DNA from: a virus
Direction: 5' to 3' (one strand)
Virus record (IMG/VR): IMGVR_UViG_3300042327_001430
Coordinates: 1 to 42,318 of that record
Length of the DNA stretch: 42,318 bases
Below the pieces are notes generated by a model that did no database searches, had not been told where the DNA came from, and worked only from the letters and a program-made list of their open reading frames with translations. Shown here piece by piece: positions 8,457-37,140 of the stretch. Each line of letters opens with the position of its first letter. Position 1 is the stretch's first letter. The position numbers and the translations under genes were made by a program.

Positions 8457-8602
8457 ATTGTCGCACTTTGAAATTGTCGCAGTTGAAAAATGTCAGACAA
8501 CGTGAAGGCCAAGACAGGGGGGGCATCGGGAACCCTACCAACCCGCTCAACCAATGCAGTTTGCCCGTCGCTCGCTTCTTTCCTGAGCGTTGCATAATTT
8601 GA
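8453..8602 (+). CDS. Doubtful small protein
   Basis: A 49-residue frame from ATG 8453 (ATGA overlap), ending at TGA 8600-8602 inside the TTTGACA element that precedes the terminase small subunit. The first codons coincide with a 16-base tandem repeat, so this part may be regulatory rather than coding. No recognisable domain; included because the coupling pattern is the same as for the upstream genes. Confidence 0.3.
   Translation: MNCRTLKLSQLKNVRQREGQDRGGIGNPTNPLNQCSLPVARFFPERCII
8456..8487 (+). repeat. Tandem 16-base direct repeat, possible operator
   Basis: AATTGTCGCA occurs at 8456-8465 and 8472-8481, exactly 16 bases apart, each followed by a TTGA-type tail. A weaker third match (AAATGTCAGAC) follows at about 8487. 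The repeat lies at the boundary between the early gene run and the terminase genes, where control of late transcription would be expected. Confidence 0.4.
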
Positions 8603-8604
8603 CA
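8598..8604 (+). promoter_or_regulatory. TTTGACA start-site element (terminase small subunit)
   Basis: TTTGACA lies 14 bases before the GTG start at 8619; between them is the dyad TTGCACAA (8608-8615). The TGA inside the heptamer is the stop of the preceding small frame. One of ten such elements in this genome. Confidence 0.45.
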
Positions 8605-8618
8605 TCGTTGCACAAGCC

Positions 8619-9275
8619 GTGGGCATCACGGAATTAAGCAACGCGTTAAACATCGACAAGTCGGTCGTCTCGCGCCTCGTCAAGAAAGGCATGCCCACGA
8701 CCTCGGTGGACGCCGCCCAGGCGTGGCGCGAATCGAACGCACCGCCGAGGGCCAAGCGTGGGCAACGCGGCACACCGCCACCGCCGCCGAAACTCTCAAA
8801 GGTCGCCGAACCTCCGAGAGTGTCAGAGCCTGCCGAGCCTCTGCCAGTTCCTCCACCGCCGCCGGTTCACGACAGCGCACCCGAGCCTGACGACGAAGAC
8901 AACACGCCGCGCCAATCCCTCCGCCGTGCCCGCCTTGCCGAGAAGGTCGGCTACAACGAACTCGTCATCTGCAAGCGCAACGGCGGCTCGGTCGAAGACA
9001 TCCGCAAGGCAAACCAAATCTACATCGCCTCCAGGAACAACCGCATCAAGGCCGAGAAGGATTTCAAAGACTGGCAACGCCAGGAAGCCATCACCCTCTT
9101 CTACGACGAAGCGCGCGACATCACGAGCCGCCCGCACATCACCGCCAAGCAGCTCCTCGAAGTCATGCCCAAGACCCTCGCCACCCGGCTGCACGGCCAA
9201 CCGCAGAAAACCATCGAAGCCACCCTTGCCGAGTGGGCCGACAACCTCACGACCATCATCCGAAAAGCCATATGA
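8619..9275 (+). CDS. Terminase small subunit, Nu1-like
   Basis: A 218-residue protein from GTG 8619; an in-frame TAA at 8595 leaves little room for an earlier start. The N-terminus is a winged HTH of the Nu1/MerR type (ELSNALNIDKSVVSRLVKKG, then a VDAAQAWRES tail), which recognises the packaging site. A long Pro-rich linker (about residues 50-95) connects it to a helical C-terminal part (KAEKDFKDWQRQEAITLFYD) that would oligomerise and contact the large subunit. Position before the GpA-type large subunit supports the call, although an HNH gene and a methyltransferase lie in between. Confidence 0.8.
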   Translation: MGITELSNALNIDKSVVSRLVKKGMPTTSVDAAQAWRESNAPPRAKRGQRGTPPPPPKLSKVAEPPRVSEPAEPLPVPPPPPVHDSAPEPDDEDNTPRQSLRRARLAEKVGYNELVICKRNGGSVEDIRKANQIYIASRNNRIKAEKDFKDWQRQEAITLFYDEARDITSRPHITAKQLLEVMPKTLATRLHGQPQKTIEATLAEWADNLTTIIRKAI

Positions 9276-9280
9276 AAATG

Positions 9281-9943
9281 CTACCCCCTAAATCGCACGG
9301 CGCTTCTCTCTGTTTCCCGAATCAAAACAACTTCCCCTTCTGGATAGGAAAAAGGTTTTCCGTAAATTTTAATTTCATCAAGAGGGATCAGGTTTGCGTG
9401 AACCATGTAATGATGATTCGGGCAAAGCGTGACAAGGTTTTCAACGCGATCTGTTCCTCCGTTCCTTTTTGGAATTATGTGGTGAACTGCCGTAACAAAG
9501 GAAAAACCACAAATAACACACTTGCCTCCGTCTCTAATTCTTGCGGACTGCTTTCCACTCCTGTTAGTTGTTCGTTTTACGGCAGCCAGCTTTTTTTTGA
9601 ATGCCTCTTTTCCGCATTCTTTAGAGCAATAGCCAACCTTCTTTCCTTGCAAATAGGCGGAAGTGACTTGCATAGACTTACCGCAATTTTGGCAGGGCAT
9701 TTCGGCCCTGTTATACATCGGGTTTTTGCTGCCGGTGAGTTTTTTTCTAAACCCATCTCGACAATCAATAGAGCAAAAAACTCTCTGCTTAATATGTGGC
9801 CGAGTAGCAAAAATACCGCCGCAGTTTCTGCATTCATGCTCAGCATATTTTTTTCTTCTGCCTCTACCGTTGTGACCAGAAATAAACCTTTTTCCTTTAT
9901 TGGCTTGTCCACCACACCCGCATTCACAAAATCCATCTGTCAT
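9281..9943 (-). CDS. HNH homing-type endonuclease with zinc ribbons, antisense to the late operon
   Basis: A 220-residue protein on the - strand, starting at 9943. It has several Cys pairs: CECGC near residues 6-10, C38/C41, C57/C61, C84/C87 and C106/C110. These are followed by the HNH core, with C142/C145, HHIIPKRNGG at 154-163, the E-N-L segment near 168-170 and CPNHH at 174-178. The DNA is AT-rich compared with the flanking genes. It is wedged 5 bases after the terminase small subunit stop and starts 2 bases from the divergent methyltransferase start. HNH genes beside terminases are common and can aid packaging, but opposite orientation and foreign composition fit a free-standing homing endonuclease better. 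Confidence 0.87.
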   Translation of the reverse strand: MTDGFCECGCGGQANKGKRFISGHNGRGRRKKYAEHECRNCGGIFATRPHIKQRVFCSIDCRDGFRKKLTGSKNPMYNRAEMPCQNCGKSMQVTSAYLQGKKVGYCSKECGKEAFKKKLAAVKRTTNRSGKQSARIRDGGKCVICGFSFVTAVHHIIPKRNGGTDRVENLVTLCPNHHYMVHANLIPLDEIKIYGKPFSYPEGEVVLIRETERSAVRFRG

Positions 9944-9945
9944 AT

Positions 9946-11187
9946 ATGAAAGAAAACACAAAAAAAGAAACATTGTCAAATCTTGTTGTTGAGCATTTGA
10001 AGCCTTCGGATTTGGCGCCATATAAAAATAACGCGAAAAAGCACGACGCTGCTCAAATCTCAAAGTTGTGTGGAAGTATAAAAGAATTCGGCTTTAACAA
10101 CCCCGTCCTCATCGACAAGGACAACGGCATCATCGCCGGTCACGGTCGCGTGCTTGCCGCTCAATCCCTCGCCCTCGAGTCCGTCCCCTGCATCCGCCTC
10201 GGCCACCTCACCGACACCCAGCGCCGAGCCTACATCCTCGCCGACAACCGCCTCGCCGAGATCGGCGGCGGGTGGGATGAGGAAATGCTCAAGCTCGAGC
10301 TGGCGGATCTCGCCTCCTTGGATGTCGATGTCGCCGAGATTGGATTCGGCGCTGAAGACCTCGCCGAGCTGGAGATGGAAGAAGAGGCGGAAAAATCAGA
10401 CGCCGACGCCGAGCCACAGATCGACAAGGCCGAAGAACTCCGCGCCAAGTGGGGCGTCGAGCCAAGGCAACTTTGGGAGCTTGGCGACCATCGGTTGCTG
10501 TGTGGCGACTCCACGATCCCCGAGCATGTGGCAAAACTCATGGGCGGAGAGAAGGCTGAAATGGTTTTTAGCGATCCTCCATATGCTTTGTTTGGAAATT
10601 CAACCGGAGTCCATGGCATTGCCGACGATAAAATGGTTCGCCCATTTTTTCGTGATATTGGCCGCGCCAGCGTTGAATGGGTTGAAAACTTTGGCCATGT
10701 CTATTTGTGCTGCGATTGGCACACAGCGTTTGTTATTCAATCCGTAATTACAGAAGTTGGTCTGACCGCAAAAAATTTGTGTGTATGGGACAAGGGCGAT
10801 GGGGGCATCGGTGCAAACTATCAGCAGTGCTATGAGTTAATTTGGTTTTTTACAAACTCGCCGCGAGCCAAAGGCACTCTGGCAAAAAAAGAAGCTGGAG
10901 AGAAAACAGTCAACGGAGTGCCAAACATTTGGCGCTTTCCTCGCGTTCAAAGTAACAGAATCCACAATGCAGAAAAGCCTGTTGGAATGGTGAGCGTTCC
11001 AATCACAAATGGCAGTAAGCCGGGCAACATCGTTTTAGATTTTTTCTCGGGAAGCGGAACGGCTCTAATGGCCTGCGAGCAACTTGGCCGCAAATGCCGC
11101 GCCATCGAAATCTCGCCCGCTTATGTCGCCGTGGCGATCCAGCGATGGGCAGACGCCACCGGCAAAGAACCCAAGCGCCTCGCATGA
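9946..11187 (+). CDS. ParB-like nuclease domain / DNA methyltransferase fusion
   Basis: A 413-residue fusion. Residues about 8-110 are a ParB/sulfiredoxin-like domain (IIAGHGRVLAAQSL, then VPCIRLGHLTDTQRRAYILA), and an acidic linker follows. Residues about 185-405 form an amino-methyltransferase with DPPY at 210-213 and the AdoMet-binding LDFFSGSGTA near 364-373. Catalytic motif before AdoMet motif is the beta-class order, which modifies adenine-N6 or cytosine-N4. It probably protects phage DNA from host restriction or marks it for packaging. Composition is patchy: bases 9946-10095 and about 10555-11050 are AT-richer than 10095-10550. Its TGA overlaps the terminase ATG. Confidence 0.9.
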   Translation: MKENTKKETLSNLVVEHLKPSDLAPYKNNAKKHDAAQISKLCGSIKEFGFNNPVLIDKDNGIIAGHGRVLAAQSLALESVPCIRLGHLTDTQRRAYILADNRLAEIGGGWDEEMLKLELADLASLDVDVAEIGFGAEDLAELEMEEEAEKSDADAEPQIDKAEELRAKWGVEPRQLWELGDHRLLCGDSTIPEHVAKLMGGEKAEMVFSDPPYALFGNSTGVHGIADDKMVRPFFRDIGRASVEWVENFGHVYLCCDWHTAFVIQSVITEVGLTAKNLCVWDKGDGGIGANYQQCYELIWFFTNSPRAKGTLAKKEAGEKTVNGVPNIWRFPRVQSNRIHNAEKPVGMVSVPITNGSKPGNIVLDFFSGSGTALMACEQLGRKCRAIEISPAYVAVAIQRWADATGKEPKRLA

Positions 11188-12887
11188 CCCCCGCCGCCGA
11201 AGCCCTACGCGAACACCTCCGCTCGATCTACGCGCCGATTGACCGGCGCACCGTCACCGAGTGGTGCGCTGACGAGGTGATCCTGAGCGAGCGGCAAACG
11301 CAGATGCCGGGCAACTTCAGCACCCGCCTCACGCCCTACCTCCGCGAGCCGCTTGAGTGCTTCGGCGATGTCGATGTTTCCGACCTCGTGCTCGTATTCG
11401 GCACGCAGACCGGCAAGACCACGATGGTGCAAGCAGGCACCGCCTGGCGCATCGTGAACAAGCCGCAGCCGGTCGTTTGGGTCATGCCCACCGAAGGCCT
11501 CGCCCGATCGTTTTCCGAGACGCGCTGGCTCCCACTCTTCGACGACAGCGCCACGCTCGCCGCTCAGAAGCCAGCGGACCGGCACCGCTTCAAAAACCTC
11601 GAGCAGCATTTTTCGCGGTGTTCGCTCGTCTTCGTCGGGTCGAACTCCCCGGCGAACCTCGCCAGCCGCCCCGCCGGACTCCTACTGATGGACGAGGTGG
11701 ACAAATTCGCCCGCGAGACAGACCAAGAAACCTCCGCGCTTTTCCTCGCAGAGAACAGAACCAAGTCATTCGTCGGCGCGCTTCGCGTCAAGACCAGCAC
11801 GCCCACCACGCCGGACGGCGCGATATGGCAGGAGTTTTTGAAAGGCACGCAGGAGAAATTCATGCTCGAGTGCCCGCACTGCCACGAGCGCATCGAGCTT
11901 TTGTGGGAGCAGGTCAAGTGGGACACCGACGCGAAAGTGGCCGGCAAGTGGAACATGGCCCGAGTCGAAGAATCCGCGCGCTACATTTGCCAGCGGTGCG
12001 GAGGCGAGTGGAACGACGGCCAGAAGATCGAAGCCCTCCAAGACGGCAAGTGGCAGGCCACAAACCCCAGCGCCCAGCGCGGCTTCCGCAGCTTTCACCT
12101 TAATTCCCTCTACGCGCCGTGGCGCTCCTGCACCTTCGGCGCGCTCGCGGTGAAATTCCTACGCGACAAGGACACGCTCAACGGCCTGCAAGATTTCACG
12201 AACAGCACCATGGCCATGCCGTGGGAGCAGGTCGAGACCAGCATCGGCGACGCCAACATTCTCAGCCTCCGAGGCGACTACACGCGCGGCACCTGCCCGA
12301 TCGAGCCAGCGCACATCGTCACCTGCGCCGACATCGGCCAGGATAAACAGCACTGGACCACGGTCGCCTTTGACGCCAACGGCCAGAGCTATGTCCTCGA
12401 CTACGGAACCACGCTCACCATCGAAGACTTGCTGGCCGACTCGCCCCGCCGCATCTACCGCACGCCCAGCGGGCAGGAAGTCCGCCCCGAGTGCGGATTG
12501 ATGGATTCCGGCTTCGCCACCTTCCGCGTCTACACCGCCTGCCAAGTCAGCGCCGGATTCTGGCACGCCGCCAAAGGCTCCGGCGCAACCTTCGGCAGCC
12601 GCATCGGGCGCACCGTCATAGACGACTTCCCCGGCGTCGTGCTCTACACCTTCGTGGACCACGCCATCAAAACGGAACTCTTCATCGACCGAATCCGCAA
12701 CGGCAAGCCCCCGCTCGCCATCCCGCGCGACACCACCGAGGACTTCCTACGCGGCATGAGCGGCCAGCGCCTCGTTCCCCGCAAGACCGCCACCGGCCAA
12801 GAGTTCGTATGGAAATCCGTCGCGCAAGATCACTACATGGACGCCGTGAAACTCTGCCATATCGCCTGGCACATCTTGAAAAACTGA
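11184..12887 (+). CDS. Terminase large subunit, GpA family
   Basis: A 567-residue packaging motor of the lambda gpA-like family. ATG 11184 overlaps the methyltransferase stop; longer upstream starts are shadows. The ATPase has Walker A GTQTGKTT at 73-80 and Walker B LLLMDE at 166-171. A zinc-binding insertion follows (C230/C233 and C269/C272), as in other GpA proteins. The nuclease part shows D383 in CADIGQD, D441 in GLMDSG, and a late acidic DHYMDAV. It cuts concatemers at cos-like sites and pumps DNA into the prohead through the portal. The full length is close to lambda gpA. Confidence 0.93.
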   Translation: MTPAAEALREHLRSIYAPIDRRTVTEWCADEVILSERQTQMPGNFSTRLTPYLREPLECFGDVDVSDLVLVFGTQTGKTTMVQAGTAWRIVNKPQPVVWVMPTEGLARSFSETRWLPLFDDSATLAAQKPADRHRFKNLEQHFSRCSLVFVGSNSPANLASRPAGLLLMDEVDKFARETDQETSALFLAENRTKSFVGALRVKTSTPTTPDGAIWQEFLKGTQEKFMLECPHCHERIELLWEQVKWDTDAKVAGKWNMARVEESARYICQRCGGEWNDGQKIEALQDGKWQATNPSAQRGFRSFHLNSLYAPWRSCTFGALAVKFLRDKDTLNGLQDFTNSTMAMPWEQVETSIGDANILSLRGDYTRGTCPIEPAHIVTCADIGQDKQHWTTVAFDANGQSYVLDYGTTLTIEDLLADSPRRIYRTPSGQEVRPECGLMDSGFATFRVYTACQVSAGFWHAAKGSGATFGSRIGRTVIDDFPGVVLYTFVDHAIKTELFIDRIRNGKPPLAIPRDTTEDFLRGMSGQRLVPRKTATGQEFVWKSVAQDHYMDAVKLCHIAWHILKN

Positions 12888-12890
12888 CCT

Positions 12891-13103: not shown

Positions 13104-13108
13104 GCGAT

Positions 13109-13156: not shown

Positions 13157-13176
13157 ATTGATGCCCGCCCGCCGAG

Positions 13177-13191: not shown

Positions 13192-13237
13192 CTCTGCGGG
13201 CCTCCAAAAATATTTTCATCTTTTTGAAAAAAAGTTG

Positions 13238-13826: not shown

Positions 13827-14011
13827 AAAAACCCACCACCCACGGCGGCCCGCGCAAAGGATCGGGCCGCCCCAAAGGCGCGAAATCCGCCAACGCCAAA
13901 GGCCGGACAGCCGTAACGCGCTCCGTCTCCATGCAGCCCGAGAGTTGGGCCAAGCTCGACATCCAGCGAGGCACGATGAGCCGAGGGAAGTTTATCGAGT
14001 CGAAACTTTGA
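13823..14011 (+). CDS. Putative AT-hook/ribbon-helix-helix DNA-binding protein
   Basis: A 62-residue basic protein. The N-terminus HGGPRKGSGRPKGAKS contains an AT-hook-like GRP core flanked by basic residues. The C-terminal half (AVTRSVSMQPESWAKLDIQR, then a short helix) matches a ribbon-helix-helix fold: one beta-strand, two helices. Such proteins are small dimeric repressors. It is the last gene of the cassette before two terminators and is a candidate binder of the dyads at 13109-13156. Confidence 0.68.
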   Translation: MKKPTTHGGPRKGSGRPKGAKSANAKGRTAVTRSVSMQPESWAKLDIQRGTMSRGKFIESKL

Positions 14012-14031
14012 CTCGCCCGTAAAGTTATCAA

Positions 14032-14079
14032 ACCCGCCGCGCCTCTGCTTGCATGCGTAATTCGGCGGGTCTTTTTTTT
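14032..14079 (+). terminator. Rho-independent terminator
   Basis: ACCCGCCG (14032-14039) pairs with CGGCGGGT (14063-14070), with C then eight T residues at 14072-14079. It lies about 20 bases after the putative ribbon-helix-helix gene and closes the small cassette. Confidence 0.75.
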
Positions 14080-14181
14080 GTCAGAAAAACGACCACAATT
14101 TTCCGACACAATTTCTGGTTTAGAAACACCGCCGCGAACTCAAGCCACGCTTGAACTTCCGCGCAGATTCTAATCATCCCG

Positions 14182-14216: not shown

Positions 14217-14397
14217 GTAAACTTTGACTCTCCCGCCTTCACGCAGGCAGTCGATCTACATATTGCCGTGGCAAGCCCCTCTTCCCTTCGATGGGTAATG
14301 GGCGGCGGCCGGATCGGGGAGCGCTGGGTCGCTCGATTCACTCCGTAAAACCCGGCGACTGAAAAGGTGCGGCCGCGCCGTCCCTGCCACCTCCCCT

Positions 14398-14404
14398 TTT
14401 GACA
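14398..14404 (+). promoter_or_regulatory. TTTGACA start-site element (connector-like gene)
   Basis: TTTGACA lies 14 bases before GTG 14419. It forms part of an inverted repeat CCTTTTGA / TCAAAAAGG (14395-14416). Here an AAGGG sequence also offers a Shine-Dalgarno site. Confidence 0.45.
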
Positions 14405-14418: not shown

Positions 14419-14694
14419 GTGACTGACCTCGACAAAATCAGCGGCGTGAAATCCTTCCTTCGCCGCACCAAGACAACGCAGGAACTCGAAGCCCTCGCGC
14501 TCGCCACCTTTGCGTCGGCCACCGAGGAAGTCGTCATCACCTCTCTGTCATCCGACGGCACTGGCACAGGCGGACAGGTCTCTTTTCCGAAATGGCTTTT
14601 GCTCCAGGCAGTCGAAGAACTCCTCGCTGAAGGCCCGAACGGACGCCAACTTTTCGCCATCGCAGACCGCTCCCGTTACGGCACCGCCGTTTGA
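14419..14694 (+). CDS. Small head protein, possibly gpW-like connector
   Basis: A 91-residue protein from GTG 14419. Pattern: N-terminal helix (TTQELEALALATFASATEEV), a short beta-hairpin with SSDGTGTGG, then a helix (LLLQAVEELLAEG). This helix-hairpin-helix order and its place just before the portal resemble lambda gpW-type joining proteins, but sequence similarity is weak. Its TGA is inside the TTTGACA element of the portal gene. Confidence 0.55.
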   Translation: MTDLDKISGVKSFLRRTKTTQELEALALATFASATEEVVITSLSSDGTGTGGQVSFPKWLLLQAVEELLAEGPNGRQLFAIADRSRYGTAV

Positions 14695-14696
14695 CA
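14690..14696 (+). promoter_or_regulatory. TTTGACA start-site element (portal)
   Basis: TTTGACA lies 13 bases before GTG 14710. The dyad CGCC (14697-14700) / GGCG (14707-14710) ends on the G of the start codon. The TGA in the heptamer is the stop of the previous gene. Confidence 0.45.
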
Positions 14697-14709: not shown

Positions 14710-16434
14710 GTGCCGTCAAAATCAAAAAAATCAAGTTGGGGAGGAAGCCGCTCTGGCGCTGGTCGCCCGCGCAAGCTCGACGCAAAAGCAGCCGCATTTG
14801 AAGCCGCGCAACCTTCGCTGAATCGCGGCCTCGTTTGGGTGCCGACGACCGACCCCAAGCGCGAACTCACGGCCTACACGCGGATGGAAATCCTGCGTCT
14901 TGCGCGCTGGCTCTACAACAACGCGCCTCAGGCCACCTACCTCGTCGAGCACTTGGCACAACGCGCCATCGGCACCGGCATTGTGGTTCAGCCGAAAACA
15001 TCGAACACCGCTTGGAACAAAAAGGTCGATCAGTATTTCGAGGATCGCGTCTGCGCAGAGGCATGGGCATTCGACGCATCGGCTCAAGTCAATTTCTACA
15101 CCGCGCAATCTCTCATCCTCCGCCAAGTCGCCATCGACGGCGACTTTTTCGCGCAATTCCTCAAGACCAGAGAAGGTGCTGCCCGCGTCCGCTTCATCGG
15201 CGGCGAAGCCATCGGCGGGTCTGCCAGCTTTGGAAACCCGGATGACATGACCCACGACGGCGTGCGCCTCGATCAATTTGGCGCGCCAGCAAGCTACACG
15301 ATCGGCGGCAAAGAAATCTCAGCCGACCAAGTTTTGCACATGCGTCACATCCGCAGGCACGGCCAGCCGCGCGGCGTCTCGTGGCTTCACTCCGCAGTCT
15401 CCAACCTCCGCGACATCTCCGAAATAAATGGCTTCGTGAAAGGCGCATACAAGGCAGGCGCTCAGATCGGCTACATGGTGACATCCACCGAAGTCGCCAA
15501 GATCGGCCTCGGCGCAGGACTGAAATCCACCACCAACGAAGTCGGCGACCTCCAGACCACCGACCTCCCGAACGGCATCCTCCTCCCGCGCCTCAAGCCA
15601 GGCGAAAAGCTCGAAGCCTTCAAGAACGACATCCCCGGCCAGACCTACGAAGCCGTCATGCGCGCCCTCCGCAGCGATGTCGCCTTCGCCATCGGACTGC
15701 CACCGGAGGCCATGATGGTCAATGTCGGATTGGCAGGAACAGAGCAACGCGCCGTGCTCGAGGTCACTCAGAACTTCCTCGAGCGCCTTCAGCAGCAGGT
15801 CATCGATCAGTTCTGCCGGCCGTTCTACAAATATTGGCTCTGGCATGAAATGCAGGCTGGTCGCCTCGAATACCCCGGCGATGACTGGTGGCGGCACGAG
15901 TGGCTTGCCCCGCGCAAGATCACGGTGGACAGCGGCCGCGACGCCCGCGCATACAGCGAGCAACTCGACAAGGGCCACCTCTCGCCGACTCGATATTTCA
16001 ACATGCTCGGCCTCCGAGCCACCGAGGAAGAGGACGATGTGATCGACACCTTCCTCCGCCGCAAAGCTAAGTGCGACGCCCTCGGACTCAACATTTCCGA
16101 AGTTTTCCCCAACGCCCTCCGCAACGGCATCGCCGCGCAACAACCCGCCGAGCCGGATGACGACGACTCTAATCAACCTCCTGCCATTTCCGATCTGCAA
16201 GCCAAGGAAAAACTCGACGCCATCGGCGTTGCTGTCCGCGCTGGCGTTTTGACTCCAGAGCAATCGCTCGAGCAGTCCGTCCGCCAATCCTTGGCGCTGC
16301 CCGAAATGGGATCGGATGTCTTGTCCGAATGGCAACAAAACCCAATCCGCTCGCCGATCACTCTGAGCAGTGAACTCGCGGGCGCAGATGCCACCACTAA
16401 CCCCACTCCCGAAGACAACCCAACCGAACCATGA
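14710..16434 (+). CDS. Portal protein, lambda gpB family
   Basis: A 574-residue portal that forms the dodecameric ring at the capsid vertex through which DNA passes. Recognisable parts are the lambda-family core (LARWLYNNAPQATYLVEHLA), RQVAIDGDFFAQF, the VLHMRHIRRHGQPRGVSWLH segment and a region ending TEQRAVLEVTQNFLERLQQQ. It is slightly longer than lambda gpB. The first 20 residues (GGSRSGAGRPRK) look like a basic DNA-binding tail with a GRP core, like that in the small regulator at 13823. The start is GTG 14710. The C-terminal part is Asp/Pro-rich. The stop overlaps the protease ATG. Confidence 0.9.
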   Translation: MPSKSKKSSWGGSRSGAGRPRKLDAKAAAFEAAQPSLNRGLVWVPTTDPKRELTAYTRMEILRLARWLYNNAPQATYLVEHLAQRAIGTGIVVQPKTSNTAWNKKVDQYFEDRVCAEAWAFDASAQVNFYTAQSLILRQVAIDGDFFAQFLKTREGAARVRFIGGEAIGGSASFGNPDDMTHDGVRLDQFGAPASYTIGGKEISADQVLHMRHIRRHGQPRGVSWLHSAVSNLRDISEINGFVKGAYKAGAQIGYMVTSTEVAKIGLGAGLKSTTNEVGDLQTTDLPNGILLPRLKPGEKLEAFKNDIPGQTYEAVMRALRSDVAFAIGLPPEAMMVNVGLAGTEQRAVLEVTQNFLERLQQQVIDQFCRPFYKYWLWHEMQAGRLEYPGDDWWRHEWLAPRKITVDSGRDARAYSEQLDKGHLSPTRYFNMLGLRATEEEDDVIDTFLRRKAKCDALGLNISEVFPNALRNGIAAQQPAEPDDDDSNQPPAISDLQAKEKLDAIGVAVRAGVLTPEQSLEQSVRQSLALPEMGSDVLSEWQQNPIRSPITLSSELAGADATTNPTPEDNPTEP

Positions 16435-17564
16435 CCACACCCACCCCAAAATTCTATGCTCTGGAAAAAACCGCTGACAACGAAACCACCGTTACGCTTT
16501 ACGACGAGATCGGTGCTTTCGGCGCAGGCAGCAAAGAGTTCCTCGCTGACCTCGGCAAACTCTCCGGCCAACACATCCACCTCCGCATTAATTCTCCGGG
16601 CGGAAGTGTCATTGAAGGCACGGCCATTTACAATGCCCTCCGCCGCCACGAAGGCGGCTTGACCGTCCACATCGACGCCATGGCCGCCTCGATGGCCAGC
16701 GTCATCGCCATGGCAGGCGCTCCCGTTTACATGGCGGACAATGCCCTCCTCATGATCCACAACCCGTGGACGGTCAGCATGGGTGAGAGCAAAGACCTAC
16801 GCAAAGAAGCCGACCTGCTCGACAAACTCAAAGTCAATCTCCGCAACGCCTATGTGAGGAAGACGGGCATCAACGCTGAAGAAATCGGCGCGATGATGGA
16901 CGCCGAGACATGGCTCGATGCGGTCGAAGCCGTGGCCCTCGGATTTGCCGACGCCATCGAGGAAGGCGTCGCCGCCGCTGCAACAGCAACCCCCGAAATG
17001 CTCCGCGCTCGTTTTGACAAATTCGCAAAGGCATCAAGCTCTATGAATACACCCGAAGTCATCACCTACTCAGCCGAAGTCGCTGAACAAGCCGCTGAGA
17101 TCATTGAGGCCACCGTCGTGAGCGAATCCGCTCCTGCCGAGCCAATCGTCGAAACGACCAACGAAGCAGAGGTCGTCGAAACCGAGGCCGTCGAATCTAC
17201 CGCACCCGAAGTTGTCGAAGCTCCCGCCGAGCCACAGGCCAAGCTCGCCGCCGCTGATGCCATCCTCGCCAAATACAACGCCGTCATCGCAGAGCGCGAC
17301 GCCGCCGTGGCCGGACTCAAAGAAGCCAGCGCGAATATCGAATTCCTCCGCAGCGAAATCGCCGCCGAGCGCGAATCCCTCGCCCGCCTGGAGCGCAGCC
17401 TCGGCCTCTCAGCCGCCCGCGAAATTCCCGAAGTCCTGCCGACTCAGAACGCAGAAAACATCTACGACGCTTGGAAGAACGCCACCGGCGCCGAGAAGAC
17501 CCGCATCTTCCGCGCAAACCGCAAGGCACTCGAAATCGCGGCCAAAAATTTGACACCGCAATAA
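16431..17564 (+). CDS. ClpP/S49-like head maturation protease with C-terminal scaffold
   Basis: A 377-residue protein. Residues about 10-185 are a ClpP-like serine protease: NSPGGSV at 54-60, nucleophile S87 in MAASMAS, H110 in LMIHNPW, and an acidic DAETW near 157-161. Residues about 205-377 are Glu/Ala-rich and coiled-coil (AERDAAVAGLKEASANIEFL), typical of a scaffold. As in lambda C/Nu3, an in-frame ATG at 17043 (residue 205) could give a separate scaffold of about 173 residues. It shapes the prohead and cleaves scaffold or capsid parts during maturation. Confidence 0.88.
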   Translation: MTTPTPKFYALEKTADNETTVTLYDEIGAFGAGSKEFLADLGKLSGQHIHLRINSPGGSVIEGTAIYNALRRHEGGLTVHIDAMAASMASVIAMAGAPVYMADNALLMIHNPWTVSMGESKDLRKEADLLDKLKVNLRNAYVRKTGINAEEIGAMMDAETWLDAVEAVALGFADAIEEGVAAAATATPEMLRARFDKFAKASSSMNTPEVITYSAEVAEQAAEIIEATVVSESAPAEPIVETTNEAEVVETEAVESTAPEVVEAPAEPQAKLAAADAILAKYNAVIAERDAAVAGLKEASANIEFLRSEIAAERESLARLERSLGLSAAREIPEVLPTQNAENIYDAWKNATGAEKTRIFRANRKALEIAAKNLTPQ

Positions 17565-18503: not shown

Positions 18504-18508
18504 GCCAC

Positions 18509-18773: not shown

Positions 18774-18816
18774 AACGCCCGGCCGGAAGCCTTTCCCGGT
18801 CGGGCGTTCTGCTTTT
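18774..18816 (+). terminator. Strong rho-independent terminator after the capsid genes
   Basis: AACGCCCG (18774-18781) pairs with CGGGCGTT (18801-18808). The stem extends inward by a G.T pair and CCGG/CCGG to about 13 bp, and CTGCTTTT follows. The T run overlaps the next TTTGACA element. It probably limits read-through so that capsid is made in excess over tail proteins. Confidence 0.8.
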
Positions 18817-18820
18817 GACA
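18814..18820 (+). promoter_or_regulatory. TTTGACA start-site element (18834 gene)
   Basis: TTTGACA is 13 bases before ATG 18834. CAGGC (18829-18833) and GCCTG (18839-18843) place the start codon in a hairpin loop. The spacer TGCACAGGC is close to the TGCACAAGCC of the terminase element at 8598. Confidence 0.45.
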
Positions 18821-18833: not shown

Positions 18834-19157
18834 ATGTCGCCTGCGCAAAAAGACCACCTCGAAAACCTCGCCGCCACTGCGCGCAATACGCTCCTCGGCA
18901 AGCCCGCCACCTTTCGCGGGCAGAGTATCCGCGTGGGCCTGTCTGCCATCGCCATCGGTCTTGATCTCGAAACCGGCGGTCTGCGGCAAGGCGGCGAATT
19001 CACCGCGCGCTTTCTGGCATCTGCTCTGCAATCCGCTCCCCGCCGTGGCGAGCAGATCCTTGTGGAGGGCAAGACCTACACCGTGGCCACCGTGCGCGAA
19101 CAGACCGGCACGCCGTTTGAGTATGTCGCCACCATCGTCCCCGGATCCTCACTATGA
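18834..19157 (+). CDS. Head-tail joining protein (putative)
   Basis: A 107-residue protein with an N-terminal helix and a C-terminal beta-rich part (RRGEQILVEGKTYTVATVRE) resembling the FII/stopper type of lambdoid joining proteins. It lies between capsid and tail genes in the expected place. The call rests on order and general shape. It overlaps the next ATG by four bases. Confidence 0.58.
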   Translation: MSPAQKDHLENLAATARNTLLGKPATFRGQSIRVGLSAIAIGLDLETGGLRQGGEFTARFLASALQSAPRRGEQILVEGKTYTVATVREQTGTPFEYVATIVPGSSL

Positions 19158-19555
19158 ACGCCTCCATCGAATCCAGCCTCAGAGACTGGCTCCTCTCTAC
19201 CGTCCCTTTTGCGGACGCCGCGATTTTCACAGGTCAATCTGCCGAGACCATCCCTGGCGACCAGCCCGTTGTCTTTTGTGCCTGCGAGACCGTGGAGCCG
19301 GTCGCCATGGGCTATTTCAAATTTACGGCGCAGATCATCGTTTCTACCCCATGCGTGATTGAGGAGTCGCTGCCGACGCATCTCGCGCTTTCAGATGCGC
19401 TCAAGGCGGAACTCTACGACATCGCGCCGCTTGTGGATTTCCTCCCCGCATCCATGCACCTCGCGGGCGTCACCATGAATGCCTTCGGCCAATCGCAGGC
19501 CAACGAGCGGTGGCTCACGACAGCCGAGGTCGTGCTCGGGGTCATAGAAATTTGA
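19154..19555 (+). CDS. Tail completion/terminator-like protein (putative)
   Basis: A 133-residue protein upstream of the tail tube, matching the place and size of lambda gpU or gpZ-type proteins that cap the tail tube. It has an N-terminal helix (SSLRDWLLSTVPFADAAIF), a beta-rich centre (FKFTAQIIVSTPCVIEES) and a WLTTAEVVLGVIEI ending. Sequence evidence is weak. Its TGA is inside the next TTTGACA element. Confidence 0.58.
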   Translation: MNASIESSLRDWLLSTVPFADAAIFTGQSAETIPGDQPVVFCACETVEPVAMGYFKFTAQIIVSTPCVIEESLPTHLALSDALKAELYDIAPLVDFLPASMHLAGVTMNAFGQSQANERWLTTAEVVLGVIEI

Positions 19556-19557
19556 CA
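19551..19557 (+). promoter_or_regulatory. TTTGACA start-site element (tail tube)
   Basis: TTTGACA is 29 bases before ATG 19587 and includes the stop TGA of the preceding gene. A weak CGC/GCG pair brackets a T-rich loop (19558-19571). An A/C-rich CGCAACCAAC leads into the ATG. Confidence 0.35.
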
Positions 19558-25395: not shown

Positions 25396-25594
25396 ATTTT
25401 TCACAAATTCAAAATGTGCTCTTGGGTATCACGGCGGTCAACCGCACGCCGGAAATTGTGCGGCATGTATCAATGCAGGCGAGAATATGCCGGAGCAGGC
25501 TGCCGAGCTTGCCGCTCGCGCTGAGCGCGCTCACCCGGCAGGAGCGCGCCGAGTGAGCGGGTGCTGTGACTCGGCAAAAAATTACCAAGTTTGA
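25367..25594 (+). CDS. Small cysteine-rich tail-region protein
   Basis: A 75-residue protein from ATG 25367. It has seven Cys, including CALGYHGGQPHAGNCAAC, a spacing suggestive of an iron-sulfur or zinc site. Small Cys-rich proteins with a 'YGGxPxxGxCxxC' look occur beside minor tail genes in other siphoviruses, where some tail tip proteins carry an Fe-S cluster. Its stop is inside the following TTTGACA element. Confidence 0.6.
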   Translation: MTVHILKSCKFFTNSKCALGYHGGQPHAGNCAACINAGENMPEQAAELAARAERAHPAGARRVSGCCDSAKNYQV

Positions 25595-25596
25595 CA
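25590..25596 (+). promoter_or_regulatory. TTTGACA start-site element (fibre gene 1)
   Basis: TTTGACA is 21 bases before ATG 25618 and includes the stop of the preceding gene. The spacer holds the palindrome CTGCAG but no strong hairpin and no Shine-Dalgarno sequence. Confidence 0.42.
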
Positions 25597-25617: not shown

Positions 25618-26712
25618 ATGCGTATTTATCTCGATCTCGATTCCCGCCGACTGCTTACCACGCCCACGAGGCCGCTATCGCTGCTGGAATTCAAACGCCG
25701 TGACAACGACAGCATCGAGCTTCAATTCCTGCGCGATGCAGTCGTGCAGCAACTCCCGGCAGGCACAACGGCGCGGGTCGGTATAAAACCGGATGGCGAC
25801 TACGACGCGCCTTTTCTGGCCGTCACGACGCTTACGCAAACCGGCACAGGGACGGCCACGGTCTACAGCGGTGAGCTGAATCTCCATACCACCGCAATGG
25901 CCACGGCATTCGCTGGCGAGCCAGTTACGCTCCCGGCAATGCTCGAAGTCGAGTGGGTGACGGGCGATGTCGTATCGTCCTCAAAAACGCTGCCGACCAC
26001 ACTGCACAACGATGTCATACGAGGCGACGAGGGAACTCCGGCAGACCTGCCGTTTTTTTACACTGCCCAGACAAGCGATTTCAAATCGACGCAGGCACAG
26101 GCAGAGGCAGGCACGGACAACGCGACATGGATGACTCCGCTGCGCACCGCGCAGGCGATTGCAGAACTAGCAGCCACCGACTGGGACTCTGTGAGCAGCA
26201 AGCCGAGCACTTTTGCGCCTAGCACGCACACGCATCCTCTCTCGCAACTCACACAATCGAGCGCGACGACCGGCCAAGTCGCCACATGGAATGGATCGGC
26301 GTGGGTGCCGCAAACTCCATCCGGCGGGGGCTCGGGAGGCACTCCATCCGCTCACGCGAGCAGCCATGCCACAGGAGGCAGTGACGCGATCACGCCTGCC
26401 TCGATCGGAGCAGCCGCTGCATCGCACACACATGCGGTGTCGGATGTGACAGGACTCCAGACTGCTCTGGATGGCAAGCAGGCAGTCGGCAGCTACGCCA
26501 ACGCAACGCACCAGCACTCTGCCGCAGACATTAACTCAGGAACTCTAGCCCTCGCACGCATCCCGACCGGCACGACTGGCACTACGGTAGCGCTCGGCAA
26601 CCACACGCACACCGGTTTCCTGACTGCCTCGGGCGGAATCACAAATGTGGCAGTGGTTTCAACAATGCCTGCCACGCCTGTCGCCACGACCCTCTATATC
26701 GTCACAGCATGA
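25618..26712 (+). CDS. Tail fibre/baseplate protein with adaptor N-terminus, type A
   Basis: A 364-residue protein. Residues about 1-190 are a beta-rich adaptor (MRIYLDLDSRRLL; LEFKRRDNDSIELQFL) shared with the genes at 28026, 29714 and 31660 and resembling BppU-type baseplate adaptors. It ends in the conserved AEAGTDNATWMTPLRTAQAI. The C-terminal part has histidine-rich fibre repeats (HTHPLSQL; SHATGGSDAITPASIGAAAA; SHTHAVSDVTGLQTALDGKQ) common in trimeric fibres. It probably attaches to the tail tip and presents a receptor-binding end. The leader has no Shine-Dalgarno sequence. Confidence 0.8.
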   Translation: MRIYLDLDSRRLLTTPTRPLSLLEFKRRDNDSIELQFLRDAVVQQLPAGTTARVGIKPDGDYDAPFLAVTTLTQTGTGTATVYSGELNLHTTAMATAFAGEPVTLPAMLEVEWVTGDVVSSSKTLPTTLHNDVIRGDEGTPADLPFFYTAQTSDFKSTQAQAEAGTDNATWMTPLRTAQAIAELAATDWDSVSSKPSTFAPSTHTHPLSQLTQSSATTGQVATWNGSAWVPQTPSGGGSGGTPSAHASSHATGGSDAITPASIGAAAASHTHAVSDVTGLQTALDGKQAVGSYANATHQHSAADINSGTLALARIPTGTTGTTVALGNHTHTGFLTASGGITNVAVVSTMPATPVATTLYIVTA

Positions 26713-27998: not shown

Positions 27999-28005
27999 TT
28001 TGACA
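27999..28005 (+). promoter_or_regulatory. TTTGACA start-site element (fibre gene 3)
   Basis: TTTGACA is 20 bases before ATG 28026. The hairpin GCCGC (28010-28014), loop GTCGTA, GCGGC (28021-28025) ends directly at the start codon. Confidence 0.47.
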
Positions 28006-29685: not shown

Positions 29686-29692
29686 TTTGACA
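29686..29692 (+). promoter_or_regulatory. TTTGACA start-site element (fibre gene 4)
   Basis: TTTGACA is 21 bases before ATG 29714. TAGCGG (29693-29698) pairs with CCGCTA (29709-29714), ending on the A of the start codon. It lies 14 bases after the previous stop. Confidence 0.47.
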
Positions 29693-29713: not shown

Positions 29714-31528
<1,815 letters not shown>

Positions 31529-31632: not shown

Positions 31633-31639
31633 TTTGACA
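31633..31639 (+). promoter_or_regulatory. TTTGACA start-site element (fibre gene 5)
   Basis: TTTGACA is 20 bases before ATG 31660. A perfect 6-bp dyad GCTGCC (31642-31647) / GGCAGC (31651-31656) lies three bases before the start codon. Confidence 0.47.
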
Positions 31640-32400: not shown

Positions 32401-32423
32401 AAAAACCAAAACCAACCAATTAT

Positions 32424-34214: not shown

Positions 34215-34229
34215 TAGGTAACCTCAACC

Positions 34230-34268
34230 GTCCGCTCACAAGTCAATCCTTGTGAGCGGACTATTTTC
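34230..34268 (+). terminator. Rho-independent terminator with 13-bp stem
   Basis: GTCCGCTCACAAG (34230-34242), loop TCAATC, and CTTGTGAGCGGAC (34249-34261) form a perfect 13-bp stem followed by TATTTTC. It separates the long coiled-coil fibre from the LamG gene. Confidence 0.75.
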
Positions 34269-34292
34269 GCAAACTTTTAAAAACTTTTCTAT

Positions 34293-35114
34293 ATGGCACT
34301 CACAGACAACCTTATCGCTTTTTATAAACTCTCAGATATTTCCGACTCTTCTGGAAACAACAGAACTCTTACCAACAATGGTAACGTTTCATTTGCTTCT
34401 GGTAAGATTGGAAATGCTGCTGTGTTTGATGCACAAAGCTACCTTGAAAGAAATTTATCAGAAATTAATAATGATTTCTCTGTTTCCGGTTGGATTAATC
34501 CTAATTCAATTGGCTTGTATACAGCTTGCTTTGGTATAAATCAATACGATAATGGTTTGCTTTTTAGGGTTGGCACAGGCATCGATCAATTGTATGTGTT
34601 TGGAAGCTATGTTACGGTCGGTGAATTTAATGCTAATACTTGGACGCATGTTGTTATTGCTGGTTCAAGCGGAACAGCTAAAGCATATGTAAACGGCGTA
34701 ATGACGACATCATTGAGTTATGACTCAACAATGAGCTTCGGAGCGACTCCCAATTTTATTGCAGGCGCTTCAAGGCATAACTTGTCGCAGGAACCCTTAG
34801 ACGGTCAAATCGACGCAGTCGGCATCTGGAATCGCGCATTGAGCGATGCAGAAGTTGCTGAACTCTACAACAACGGCACTGGTCTGGAACTCGATCCGCC
34901 GAACTACCGTGGCGAGTGGGACAACTTCACCGACTATGGCCAAGACGATGTCGTCAGCGTCAACGGCGTCTACTGGAAGCTCACCGGACTCGGTGGCTGG
35001 ACAGTCGGCGGCGCGCCTGGTCTCGGCTATGGCTGGACCCTGCTGGGGGTCACTCCCTACAGCGTCCGCATCAGCGGAAATGCCAAACTCCAAGGCAAAG
35101 TGAAATTTGCCTAA
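34293..35114 (+). CDS. LamG/concanavalin-like lectin tail protein
   Basis: A 273-residue protein. Residues about 5-200 have the LamG-like jelly-roll pattern (AFYKLSDISDSSGNNRTLTN; FSVSGWINPNS; THVVIAGSSGTAKAYVNGV; DAVGIWNRALSDAEVAELYN). The last 65 residues form a small Trp-rich module (YRGEWDNFTDYGQDDVVSV) like CBM-type tails of other fibres here. The lectin part is AT-rich up to about 34790 and the remainder GC-rich, so it was spliced onto a resident 3' end. It probably binds surface glycans. It has its own upstream terminator. Confidence 0.85.
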   Translation: MALTDNLIAFYKLSDISDSSGNNRTLTNNGNVSFASGKIGNAAVFDAQSYLERNLSEINNDFSVSGWINPNSIGLYTACFGINQYDNGLLFRVGTGIDQLYVFGSYVTVGEFNANTWTHVVIAGSSGTAKAYVNGVMTTSLSYDSTMSFGATPNFIAGASRHNLSQEPLDGQIDAVGIWNRALSDAEVAELYNNGTGLELDPPNYRGEWDNFTDYGQDDVVSVNGVYWKLTGLGGWTVGGAPGLGYGWTLLGVTPYSVRISGNAKLQGKVKFA

Positions 35115-35123
35115 ACCATCAAC

Positions 35124-35149
35124 GCCGGTGGCTTTCCATAGCCACCGGC
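35124..35149 (+). terminator. Hairpin after the LamG gene
   Basis: GCCGGTGGC (35124-35132) pairs with GCCACCGGC (35141-35149) around an 8-base loop, a 9-bp GC-rich stem with no T run. It is a likely mRNA 3' end or attenuator. Confidence 0.5.
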
Positions 35150-35158
35150 ATCTGGCTT

Positions 35159-35407
35159 ATGTTCGCACTCAGCTTCCCAGCAGATCCCGTCGATTACCAA
35201 GTCCATTCAGAAAATGGACGCACATGGGTATGGATACCTGGCGAACCACCTCGCTGGCAGATTTGCAAAGAGCCACCAGTCGCCCACAAGGCGAGCCACG
35301 CCACCGGCGGCAGCGACGCCATATCGCCATCCGACATCGGCGCGGTCACCCAAGAGTCATTCAACCTGATCGCCGCCCGAGTAGCGGCACTTGAAGCCTT
35401 GGCATGA
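35159..35407 (+). CDS. Small fibre-tip or fibre-associated protein
   Basis: An 82-residue protein from ATG 35159. It has a short Trp-rich start (ENGRTWVWIPGEPPRWQI) followed by HKASHATGGSDAISPSDIGA, which repeats the SHATGGSDAI motif of the fibre at 25618. It ends in a helix (NLIAARVAALEALA). It looks like an orphan fibre tail domain. Its stop overlaps the lipoprotein start. Confidence 0.65.
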   Translation: MFALSFPADPVDYQVHSENGRTWVWIPGEPPRWQICKEPPVAHKASHATGGSDAISPSDIGAVTQESFNLIAARVAALEALA

Positions 35408-35775
35408 TGCGCCTCCTCGCCATTCTACTAGCCGTAGCCCTCGCAGGCTGCGCCACCGAGCCGCGCAACGCCGAGCAGTGGATGGCGCGAGAGCGCAACG
35501 CCTGCCTGCCCACCGCTGTGACCATGGCCGAAGGCCTCAAGCGCCAAGGCATCGCTGCGAAGGTCGTGCGCTACAGCTACACAGCACAAGGTCGGCCTCT
35601 CGGACACGCCATCACCGCCTATCTCTACCCACCCGGCACCAATACCCTCTACACCTACGACTACGAAGGAAGCTGGCGCACCCGCGCGTATTTTGACGAC
35701 GCCGCATCAATAGCACGAGCCGCCGAGCGCCTGCGTGGCCGGTTCTACGACATAACCACCGCAGATTTTTTGTAA
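35404..35775 (+). CDS. Lipoprotein with a possible papain-like Cys-His-Asp arrangement
   Basis: A 123-residue predicted lipoprotein with a signal sequence (MRLLAILLAVA) and lipobox LAGC, Cys at residue 16. The mature part has C34 in NACLPTAV, H68 in PLGHAIT and D86 in YTYDYEG. The order C-H-D with flanking strands is that of papain-like or transglutaminase-like enzymes. It lies at the head of the lysis cassette. It could be a lysis accessory, an envelope-modifying or superinfection-excluding protein. The enzymatic idea is inferred from residue order only. Confidence 0.68.
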   Translation: MMRLLAILLAVALAGCATEPRNAEQWMARERNACLPTAVTMAEGLKRQGIAAKVVRYSYTAQGRPLGHAITAYLYPPGTNTLYTYDYEGSWRTRAYFDDAASIARAAERLRGRFYDITTADFL

Positions 35776-35776
35776 T

Positions 35777-36049
35777 ATGGAAAAACAGCTACTCGAGGTC
35801 ACCAATTTCGCCGCCGGTCAAAGCGACCGCTGGCTCTTCGTCGCCCTCTTAATCATCGGTCTCACCGCGATTGGAATTTTGTTCCGATACTTCACCGCTC
35901 GCCTGGACACGCTTCAGGACCGCATGGACGCGCAGACAACCGAATTCGTGAGTCACCTCAAAACCGCAAACCAAGAAATGCTCGCCGTCATCGCCTCGGC
36001 CAAGGCCGTCATCGAGCGAGTCGAGCGCAAGCTGGAAATACACAAATGA
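35777..36049 (+). CDS. Single-TM holin-like or i-spanin-like protein
   Basis: A 90-residue protein with one transmembrane helix (WLFVALLIIGLTAIGILFRY, residues about 19-38) followed by a coiled coil (RLDTLQDRMDAQTTEFVSHL) and a charged C-terminus. This layout fits either a small holin of the BhlA/UviB kind or an inner-membrane spanin whose coiled coil spans the periplasm. The immediately overlapping small lipoprotein gene makes the spanin reading attractive. Confidence 0.65.
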   Translation: MEKQLLEVTNFAAGQSDRWLFVALLIIGLTAIGILFRYFTARLDTLQDRMDAQTTEFVSHLKTANQEMLAVIASAKAVIERVERKLEIHK

Positions 36050-36210
36050 AACCCGGACACATCGCACTCGGCCTCATCATCATCTCGCTCACCTTAGCAG
36101 CCATGGCCTTCCTGACCGGCTGCCAGAGCCTCGGAGACGCGCAAGTCTGCGTCCGCACCGACTACGGCACCTTCTGCTACGATTTGCCAAAGCCCGCTTC
36201 CTCGAAATGA
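36046..36210 (+). CDS. Small lipoprotein, o-spanin-like
   Basis: A 54-residue protein overlapping the previous stop (ATGA). It has a hydrophobic signal (LGLIIISLTLAAMAFLTGC) with a lipobox LTGC, Cys near residue 26, and a very short mature part with two more Cys and a Pro/Ser end. Size and position after a single-TM coiled-coil gene match Rz/Rz1-type spanin pairs that fuse inner and outer membranes at lysis. This implies a Gram-negative-type host envelope. Confidence 0.65.
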   Translation: MKPGHIALGLIIISLTLAAMAFLTGCQSLGDAQVCVRTDYGTFCYDLPKPASSK

Positions 36211-36407
36211 TACTCCACCTCTTCGACTTCTTCCGCCGCATCCTGTCTCGATTTTCTGAGAAGCCTGAAGTCGTCAGGCAGCGCGCCGCAGCTACAAAAC
36301 GGCCTCGTCCTACTGGCAAAAAGCGCCGAGCGGCAACACACGGGGCCGCGACTAAAACCGTGACCGGGATTAACGCACCGGCTCAGAAGCCTCGCAAAAA
36401 AAAATGA
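36207..36407 (+). CDS. Small basic protein of the lysis cassette
   Basis: A 66-residue, very basic protein (KRPRPTGKKRRAATH; ending RKKK). An N-terminal amphipathic or weakly hydrophobic helix (MILHLFDFFRRILSRF) could lie on a membrane. It could be an antiholin-like, membrane-active or nucleic-acid-binding peptide. Function unknown. Overlaps at both ends with neighbours (ATGA). Confidence 0.6.
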   Translation: MILHLFDFFRRILSRFSEKPEVVRQRAAATKRPRPTGKKRRAATHGAATKTVTGINAPAQKPRKKK

Positions 36408-36883
36408 CCCTCGACGACCGCAGCGAGCGCAACCTGGCCACGCTCCACCCCGATCTCCAACCCCGCGCCGTAGCCTTCATCAGCGCCGCCAAGAACCTCG
36501 CCGCACAGCGCGGGCTTGATGTGAAATGCATCTGCGGCCTCCGCACATGGGCAGAGCAGTCCGCCCTCTACGCCAAAGGCCGCACAGCCCCCGGCAAGAT
36601 CGTGACCAAAGCCCCAGCAGGCCACTCCATGCACAATTTCGGCCTTGCCATCGACCTCGGAGTCTTCAGCCGCGACGGCAAGACCTACCACGGCAGCCAC
36701 GGCCTCTACCGCGAACTCGGCCCCCTCGGCGAAAGCCTCGGCTTCGAGTGGGGAGGCCGCTGGAAATTCGTCGACGAACCCCACTACCAATTCCGCCCCG
36801 CTTGGTCCACCAGCATGACCGAACGCGAAATGCTCTCCAGCCTCCGCCGCCGAGTCGCAGAGAAAGTGGATATTCTCGCCTAA
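36404..36883 (+). CDS. Endolysin, M15 family L,D/D,D-peptidase
   Basis: A 159-residue cell wall peptidase. The zinc site is visible as S-M-H77-N-F-G-L-A-I-D84 and E-P-H127, the M15 pattern, and an upstream CICGLRTWAEQSALYAKGR is the usual VanY/endolysin segment. It would cut peptide cross-links or stem peptides in peptidoglycan. There is no signal peptide, so it should depend on the holin. The C-terminal 25 residues form a basic helix. Followed within a few bases by another TTTGACA element. Confidence 0.9.
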   Translation: MTLDDRSERNLATLHPDLQPRAVAFISAAKNLAAQRGLDVKCICGLRTWAEQSALYAKGRTAPGKIVTKAPAGHSMHNFGLAIDLGVFSRDGKTYHGSHGLYRELGPLGESLGFEWGGRWKFVDEPHYQFRPAWSTSMTEREMLSSLRRRVAEKVDILA

Positions 36884-36886
36884 TCT

Positions 36887-36893
36887 TTTGACA
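36887..36893 (+). promoter_or_regulatory. TTTGACA element before the last late gene
   Basis: TTTGACA is 14 bases before GTG 36908. The hairpin ACAGC (36896-36900), loop CAAC, GCTGT (36905-36909) overlaps that GTG. The GTG is not in the frame with good coding character, which makes this copy odd. Confidence 0.42.
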
Positions 36894-37140
36894 AAACAGC
36901 CAACGCTGTGAGCCGCAAGCCCAAGCCACCGCACCGGCAGAACGCGCTGCAATCGAGGCCAGACTCTACAAGCTCGCCGCCTCTCCAAACGCACTCGCAG
37001 CACACGCCGCCACGCTCACCATCACGGCCATCGAAGACGCCGCCAAAAACGCCGCCAAGTCCTTCCTCAAATCCAGCGAGCGAGGCAGGAAACAATACGA
37101 GGTTGTTTACGATCTGCAAAAAGCGAAATCCATTTATTAG
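36892..37140 (+). CDS. Hypothetical helical protein with no conventional start codon
   Basis: The frame open from 36892 to TAG 37138-37140 encodes a well-formed Ala/Glu-rich helical protein (TAPAERAAIEARLYKLAASP; SSERGRKQYEVVYDLQKAKS) with good codon use. Yet no ATG, GTG or TTG occurs in the first part of this frame; a stop at 36889 blocks extension upstream. The GTG at 36908, at the typical distance from TTTGACA, is in another frame that looks like a Pro/Ser-rich shadow. An indel, an unusual start codon, or a -1 shift near the start would reconcile this. Function unknown. Confidence 0.45.
   Translation, partial: QNSQRCEPQAQATAPAERAAIEARLYKLAASPNALAAHAATLTITAIEDAAKNAAKSFLKSSERGRKQYEVVYDLQKAKSIY

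Follow-up and report, generated by a model that had tools for sequence, protein, structure and literature searches.

A TTTGACA heptamer conserved ahead of late genes in two phage lineages, a candidate recognition element of a phage-specific late promoter

The virus record IMGVR_UViG_3300042327_001430 was analysed over 42,318 nucleotides (nt), hereafter the window, and its late region carries a heptamer, TTTGACA, that recurs shortly before gene starts (Table 1). The genes preceded in this way include those for the portal, the major head protein, several fibre-like proteins and a head-tail attachment-like protein (18834, slightly below the Pfam cut-off), together with a putative scaffold gene. 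No family match was found for the protein starting at GTG 8619, which we take from its position and look to be possibly the small terminase subunit, nor for the small gene at 14419 ahead of the portal gene.

On both strands together the window holds 15 copies of TTTGACA against 5.1 expected, a number that none of 100 shuffles reached, and 13 of these copies are forward and two reverse. Measured against 53 hand-set starts, 12 of the 13 forward copies sit 18-50 nt 5' of a gene start, in a zone that makes up 4.1% of window positions (P 3e-16), while the remaining forward copy, at 1450, lies in the interior of the helicase gene; any other ordering of the same seven letters, of which there are 419, occurs at most six times in this zone. 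The starts at 17043, 28026, 31660 and 36908 were placed while the heptamer was in view, and without them 8 of 13 forward copies still lie upstream of a start (P 5e-9). In the window the sites precede late genes only. An initial annotation made from the letters alone had listed ten of these copies, all at exact coordinates, and its distances of 13-14, 20-21 or 29 nt to the start codon are correct when measured from the heptamer end. Its suggestion that the TGA of the heptamer serves as the upstream stop at four sites is confirmed at 14690 and 19551; at 8598 and 25590 it applies only to open reading frames (ORFs) that are doubtful as genes.

The heptamer extends well beyond the window. A search with the protease returned 80 viral relatives, some of them overlapping, which without thinning contain 479 forward and 10 reverse copies. 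Counted without redundancy over 82 loci there are 241 forward and 8 reverse copies, and under a third-order model TTTGACA is the most over-represented 7-mer in these loci. The same junctions carry it across relatives, the counts in Table 1 taking in the window, the relatives and two prophage loci; to these are added 84 copies at the internal scaffold start, of which at least one is misassigned, 19 at fibre genes and one other, and 49 outside the named junction classes, many of which are also 5' of ORFs. GTG and ATG exchange at one same column among the relatives' start codons, which supports the annotated starts. A second lineage of 80 loci, whose distant homology to the window amounts to 20% identity in the portal and 28% in the protease, has 239 forward and 25 reverse copies, and at its non-redundant sites the start codon is 20-22 nt away in 86 of 129 cases. 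The enrichment and conserved spacing that the initial annotation had looked to in related phages are thus borne out, both in the relatives and in this second lineage. The Akkermansia phage Moulinsart, with two forward copies and one reverse, shows no enrichment of the motif.

Two copies that the initial annotation had set aside as background, at 17013 and 17549, turned out to be conserved sites. The first reads Phe-Asp in the protease frame and is followed by an in-frame ATG, 17043, at which the putative scaffold gene begins within the protease ORF (16431-17564); phage lambda likewise has an in-frame scaffold gene, Nu3, inside its protease gene C. At 17013 the heptamer is exact in all 82 aligned relatives (35 non-redundant), although in the remainder of the protease of this lineage Phe is written TTC 427 times and TTT 135 times, which argues that the nucleotides are conserved and not only the residues. 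The corresponding internal site of lineage 2 is exact in all 69 loci aligned of 80 (37 non-redundant), with 291 TTC and 155 TTT codons in the remainder of that protease.

Across all sites the distance from the first T of the heptamer to the start codon spans 20 to 59 nt. Where the start codon is at least 26 nt away, a purine-A step occurs at position +21, counted from that T, in 26 of 45 thinned sites, which none of 2000 rotations reached, and +21 is the best column for purine-A in each lineage taken separately. In the common 20-22 nt class this is the position of the start codon itself. The simplest reading of this coincidence is that RNA starts there, in which case many late messenger RNAs (mRNAs) may be leaderless. 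A start at +14, hinted at by pooled purines, was rejected since pyrimidine-purine steps there are not above expectation.

Heptamers also stand before units that appear to be RNA genes. Between 14007 and 14398 the window has no listed forward ORF and two copies of the variant TTTGACT. The TTTGACT copies head small-RNA-like (sRNA-like) units that close with a hairpin and a T run, the first with a conserved hairpin whose loop reads CCTCT, and the unit at 14007 is likely a small RNA; its start codons give ORFs of three to four codons or open late, at 14053 and 14078, and in two of four relatives checked (L025 and L033) the 71 nt examined contain no ATG or GTG. A pyrimidine-A step falls at +20 or +21 in all 13 aligned sRNA-like units, which all belong to one family. 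Rfam recognised no family in the window. In four relatives a methionine transfer RNA (tRNA-Met) lies between two heptamers (L059 6377-6448, L066 12473-12545, L069 5440-5512 and L070 4338-4410), in the order terminator-like hairpin, TTTGACA, tRNA, TTTGACA. More generally, a terminator-like T tract adjoins 29 of 286 non-redundant heptamers against about 1.8 expected, 27 of them at the attachment-like gene and two before a tRNA. In the window the copy at 18814 has a terminator-like hairpin immediately 5', with its T tract from 18807.

The host is presumed to belong to Verrucomicrobia, as two prophages related to the window (L085 and L086) are located in Verrucomicrobia metagenome-assembled genomes (MAGs), an assignment subject to errors of binning; the phages form a large, little-studied group with hosts probably in that phylum. 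One MAG of the presumed host was sampled over 400 kb; its two strands together hold 20 copies there, and a simple gene caller places the heptamer in only 1 of 298 upstream regions.

We consider it reasonably probable that a phage-specific late promoter, the best supported of the options raised by the initial annotation, is recognised through TTTGAC followed by A, or less often by T. That the element acts in transcription and not in translation is favoured by four of the observations above, namely the sRNA-like units headed by TTTGACT, the tRNA-Met loci, the adjoining terminator-like hairpins and the purine-A step at +21. According to this proposal, a phage-made factor would recruit the host RNA polymerase to the element, the host enzyme being assumed because no phage polymerase was seen, and transcription would begin about 20-21 nt past the first T of the heptamer. 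A start codon at +20 to +22 would then make the mRNA leaderless or nearly so, and with a start codon farther off the 5' end would be the purine-A stretch; for the site at 17549, transcription is predicted to start at about 17570.

Several observations weigh against this proposal. Stronger thinning weakens the +21 signal, to 7 of 17 sites in lineage 1 (reached by 86 of 2000 rotations), 5 of 8 in lineage 2 (368 of 2000) and 11 of 23 with the lineages pooled (5 of 2000). In the pooled alignment only the heptamer stands out, with no second element up to +20, and in lineage 1 the stretch from the heptamer to +20 is GC-rich, which an ordinary polymerase would have difficulty in melting. Since the two lineages are related, their sites are not independent inventions. 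Within the window, the gaps preceding genes 34293 and 36207 are without a heptamer. As to the RNA units, the stem of the sRNA-like unit shows a two-sided change in only 1 of 12 pairs, the four tRNA-Met loci are related to each other, a fifth tRNA (L086) is not flanked by heptamers, and the tRNA units do not have purine-A at +21. Finally, the pattern TTTGACA-N10-33-ATG exceeds its backward counterpart in whole genomes as well, with 58 against 13 and 52 against 8 in the two MAGs with close prophages and 107 against 75, 161 against 85 and 25 against 7 in three others, a crude control given that TTTGAC doubles as the codon pair Phe-Asp.

Table 1. Heptamer sites, variant copies and candidate reader genes in the window; distances run from the first T of the heptamer to the start codon, and site counts cover the window, its relatives and two prophage loci
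Feature	Position	Strand	Distance and start	Sites	Remarks
TTTGACA	8598..8604	+	21 nt to GTG 8619	16	leaderless start predicted
TTTGACA	14398..14404	+	21 nt to GTG 14419	71	small gene ahead of portal
TTTGACA	14690..14696	+	20 nt to GTG 14710	79	portal; TGA is the stop of 14419-14694
TTTGACA	17013..17019	+	30 nt to in-frame ATG 17043		within protease ORF; putative scaffold protein
TTTGACA	17549..17555	+	49 nt to ATG 17598	75	late in protease ORF; major head protein
TTTGACA	18814..18820	+	20 nt to ATG 18834	67	head-tail attachment-like gene
TTTGACA	19551..19557	+	36 nt to ATG 19587	46	TGA is the stop of 19154-19555
TTTGACA	25590..25596	+	28 nt to ATG 25618		fibre-like
TTTGACA	27999..28005	+	27 nt to ATG 28026		fibre-like
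TTTGACA	29686..29692	+	28 nt to ATG 29714		fibre-like
TTTGACA	31633..31639	+	27 nt to ATG 31660		fibre-like N terminus
TTTGACA	36887..36893	+	21 nt to GTG 36908		82-aa ORF of doubtful coding value; weakest site, no counterpart found in the relatives compared
TTTGACT (variant)	14007..14080	+			heads sRNA-like unit ending in hairpin and T run
TTTGACT (variant)	14223..14229	+			before second stretch without listed forward ORF
Early helix-turn-helix protein	5660..6190	+			candidate heptamer reader
Early helical neighbour protein	6181..6615	+			candidate partner

Among the alternatives, the one that survives best, albeit as an unlikely one, is that UUUGACA acts in translation, recruiting the ribosome or a phage factor from a place 13-15 nt before the start codon and replacing the Shine-Dalgarno site. 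The tight 20-22 nt spacing at two-thirds of the lineage 2 sites would suit such a role, as would the in-frame internal scaffold start of both lineages and the finding that none of the 12 heptamer genes in the window has a Shine-Dalgarno-like site, which bears out the remark in the initial annotation that most of these genes lack one. However, the 17 other late starts of the window (one of them, 23926, badly set) have neither a heptamer nor a Shine-Dalgarno-like site; such sites accompany 8 of 17 early genes against 0 of 29 late starts, the badly set one included, and since late starts in general are without them we rejected a Shine-Dalgarno-like role of the heptamer. To our knowledge, the heptamer has no complement in the usual 16S tail. 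The spacing moreover reaches 59 nt before the major head protein gene and others, heptamers precede tRNA and sRNA-like units as well, and the purine-A step at +21 is found where the start codon is absent from that position.

A site of RNA processing, at or near which a long late transcript would be cleaved into single mRNAs and tRNA, is a still less probable explanation. It would account for heptamers that border mRNAs, tRNA and sRNA-like units, one of them only 1 nt past the 3' end of a tRNA, but it fits poorly with the terminator-like hairpins adjoining the heptamer, and cleavage at 17013 and 17549 would be expected to ruin the protease mRNA.

The initial annotation had described a short dyad between heptamer and start codon and had offered a start-site hairpin as one explanation. 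Short dyads are indeed visible, with stems such as GACACGCC/GGCGTGTC at the portal, and folding energies speak for a hairpin: sites at the portal, small, attachment-like and fibre genes fold more stably than shuffles (mean z -1.28 for the portal, -1.80 for the fibres, -1.04 and -0.85 for two more classes), and against shuffled spacers four groups out of five have a mean z between -0.65 and -1.29, the fifth one of +0.05. The model was dropped on start-codon pairing and covariation. Of 58 thinned sites in the 20-22 nt class, 38 have the start codon paired, a fraction of 0.66 where shuffled spacers give 0.70; in the four remaining groups pairing exceeds shuffles by just 0.05-0.07. Dyad pairs in the three 20-nt classes are paired more often than most slid versions, yet in these classes, the ones tested, they show no covariation, and a change from GTG to ATG is uncompensated in 7 of 8 pooled sequences; the scaffold and head-protein sites have no folding excess. 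The dyad is left out of our definition of the element, and a hairpin as a general feature of the sites is not supported. The related idea, familiar from some T4 late genes, that read-through RNA masks the start codon and that translation is confined to RNA begun within the dyad is accordingly very improbable here. The T4 cases described are e, soc, 49 and I-TevI (PMC3014915), which resemble the present sites in having the start codon in a possible stem close to a late signal and differ in that the stems here lack covariation where tested and pair barely above shuffles.

Two further explanations are about as improbable. Although TTGACA, the -35 box of ordinary host sigma-70 promoters, is contained in the heptamer, we agree with the initial annotation that such a reading makes no sense, for the pooled alignment has no -10 hexamer about 17 bp after TTGACA, transcription would begin within the coding sequence wherever the start codon follows at 20-22 nt, and the heptamer precedes only 1 of 298 genes in the sampled part of the presumed host. 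Equally hard to credit is a short recombination linker between gene modules: many junctions do carry a copy, and the tRNA unit is an example of a cassette enclosed by two, but the heptamer is kept at synonymous sites within the protease ORF, the copies overall have nearly always a single orientation, and the junctions do not share flanking sequence. The translational restart that the initial annotation had also considered, like the linker, fits the sites less well than the phage-specific promoter.

If a phage factor reads such a late promoter, two early proteins, a helix-turn-helix (HTH) protein and its helical neighbour, are unproven candidates by co-occurrence. The HTH protein is present in every one of 14 records tested from lineage 1 and its prophages; the neighbour is present in 16 of 18 records, the two without it being Opitutae genomes that served as outsiders. 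Several results count against the HTH protein as a reader. In two motif-bearing records the homologue is just 36% identical. A set of 12 records yielded the protein in four, one of these matches being just a 37-residue end, and gave no match in four motif-bearing fragments of 11-27 kb or in the four genomes or phage without enrichment. Among 15 records of lineage 2 five had it, the ten misses being records of 12-19 kb. Of 29 loci retrieved through it, 20 have a forward heptamer and nine have none, one of the nine (L245) being a 14.5-kb record of mostly early genes. Its AlphaFold model (predicted local distance difference test score, pLDDT, 71; predicted template-modelling score, pTM, 0.47) gave a best E of 0.75 with Foldseek against the PDB, where the matches include chains of sigma region 4 and of other HTH proteins, and a VIA-align Z of at most 4.5, with no firm assignment; one viral match (E 1.7e-5) is to an uncharacterised protein. 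Over 17 family members Pfam reported HTH_3 in 13 (best E 5e-5) and Sigma70_r4 in one (E 0.096). For the partner (pLDDT 80, pTM 0.40) the best PDB match had an E of 2.5, and NCBIfam gave no match for either protein; PHROGs results were weak. The gene adjoining the HTH gene, 5469-5663, encodes a small NrdR-like zinc-ribbon protein; it was rejected as a reader, with matches in 6 of 14 records, three of them close.

Searches of the window for a polymerase or sigma factor gave no match. Sigma70_r2 had none, with the control positive in 10 of 14 genomes, although a divergent factor might escape such a search, nor had RNA_pol_Rpb2_6, the beta family and the one multisubunit family searched (control positive in 14 of 14). 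The single-subunit polymerase family PF00940 had none either, a search that is uninformative because its control matched in none of the 14 genomes.

How would such a promoter compare with known systems? The late promoter of phage T4 consists of TATAAATA at -10, read by gp55. The heptamer resembles it as a single short element without a -35 that serves late genes only, and differs in its sequence, which is not TATAAATA, and in its place, which would be about -21 to -14 and not -10. Among the systems compared, and as far as the sources consulted describe them, AR9 late promoters are nearest in design and the start-associated sequences (SAS) of cluster K mycobacteriophages nearest in appearance. 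In AR9 the late promoter is AACA-(6N)-TA/G, and the phage has its own multisubunit polymerases and leaders of 26-491 nt, although phage transcripts in general are described there as often leaderless (PMC5312081). The likeness lies in a short element that here would stand at a fixed distance before a purine start, the one predicted at +21, in copies inside ORFs that may yield truncated proteins, and in a tRNA gene among the late genes, whereas phage polymerases are encoded there and none was seen here, and element and spacing differ (PMC5312081). The SAS, GGGATAGGAGCCC, are also phage-specific oriented repeats that precede many starts, are rare in the host and at times come with inverted repeats; they lie 3-7 bp before starts, contain a Shine-Dalgarno core and occur in the non-structural half of the genome (PMC3203893, PMC12699233). 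The heptamer, in contrast, ends 13-15 nt or more before the start, has no such core and precedes structural genes.

Beyond the recognition element itself, we tentatively raise the possibility, which we hold to be less than even, of a new promoter class in which a lone heptamer at about -21 to -14, without a -10, is read by a two-protein factor, the HTH protein with its helical partner, which diverts the host polymerase and so gives leaderless late mRNAs and an internal in-frame scaffold start. Our searches of open-licence literature found no description of a TTTGACA late-gene signal, of a late promoter in a Verrucomicrobia or Akkermansia phage or of leaderless starts in Verrucomicrobia. With the proposed element, late gene expression in this large, little-studied phage group would follow a simple and testable rule, by which annotators could locate true starts, those of internal scaffold genes among them, and also RNA genes. 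Should the start at +20 or +21 be true, late mRNAs would be largely leaderless and the promoter layout unlike those of the systems compared.

Some minor features of these genomes may be added. The fibre-like genes at 25618, 28026, 29714 and 31660 have related N termini and one heptamer each, and a collagen-like repeat lies within 29714-31528. In four loci (L017 2100, L030 3278, L061 3134 and L085 4149) TTTGACA occurs on both strands, 44 nt apart, in an imperfect palindrome that precedes an ORF of about 310-320 aa. The first 127 nt of the window (1-127) and its last (42192-42318) are identical, a direct repeat that suggests a circular or terminally redundant genome.

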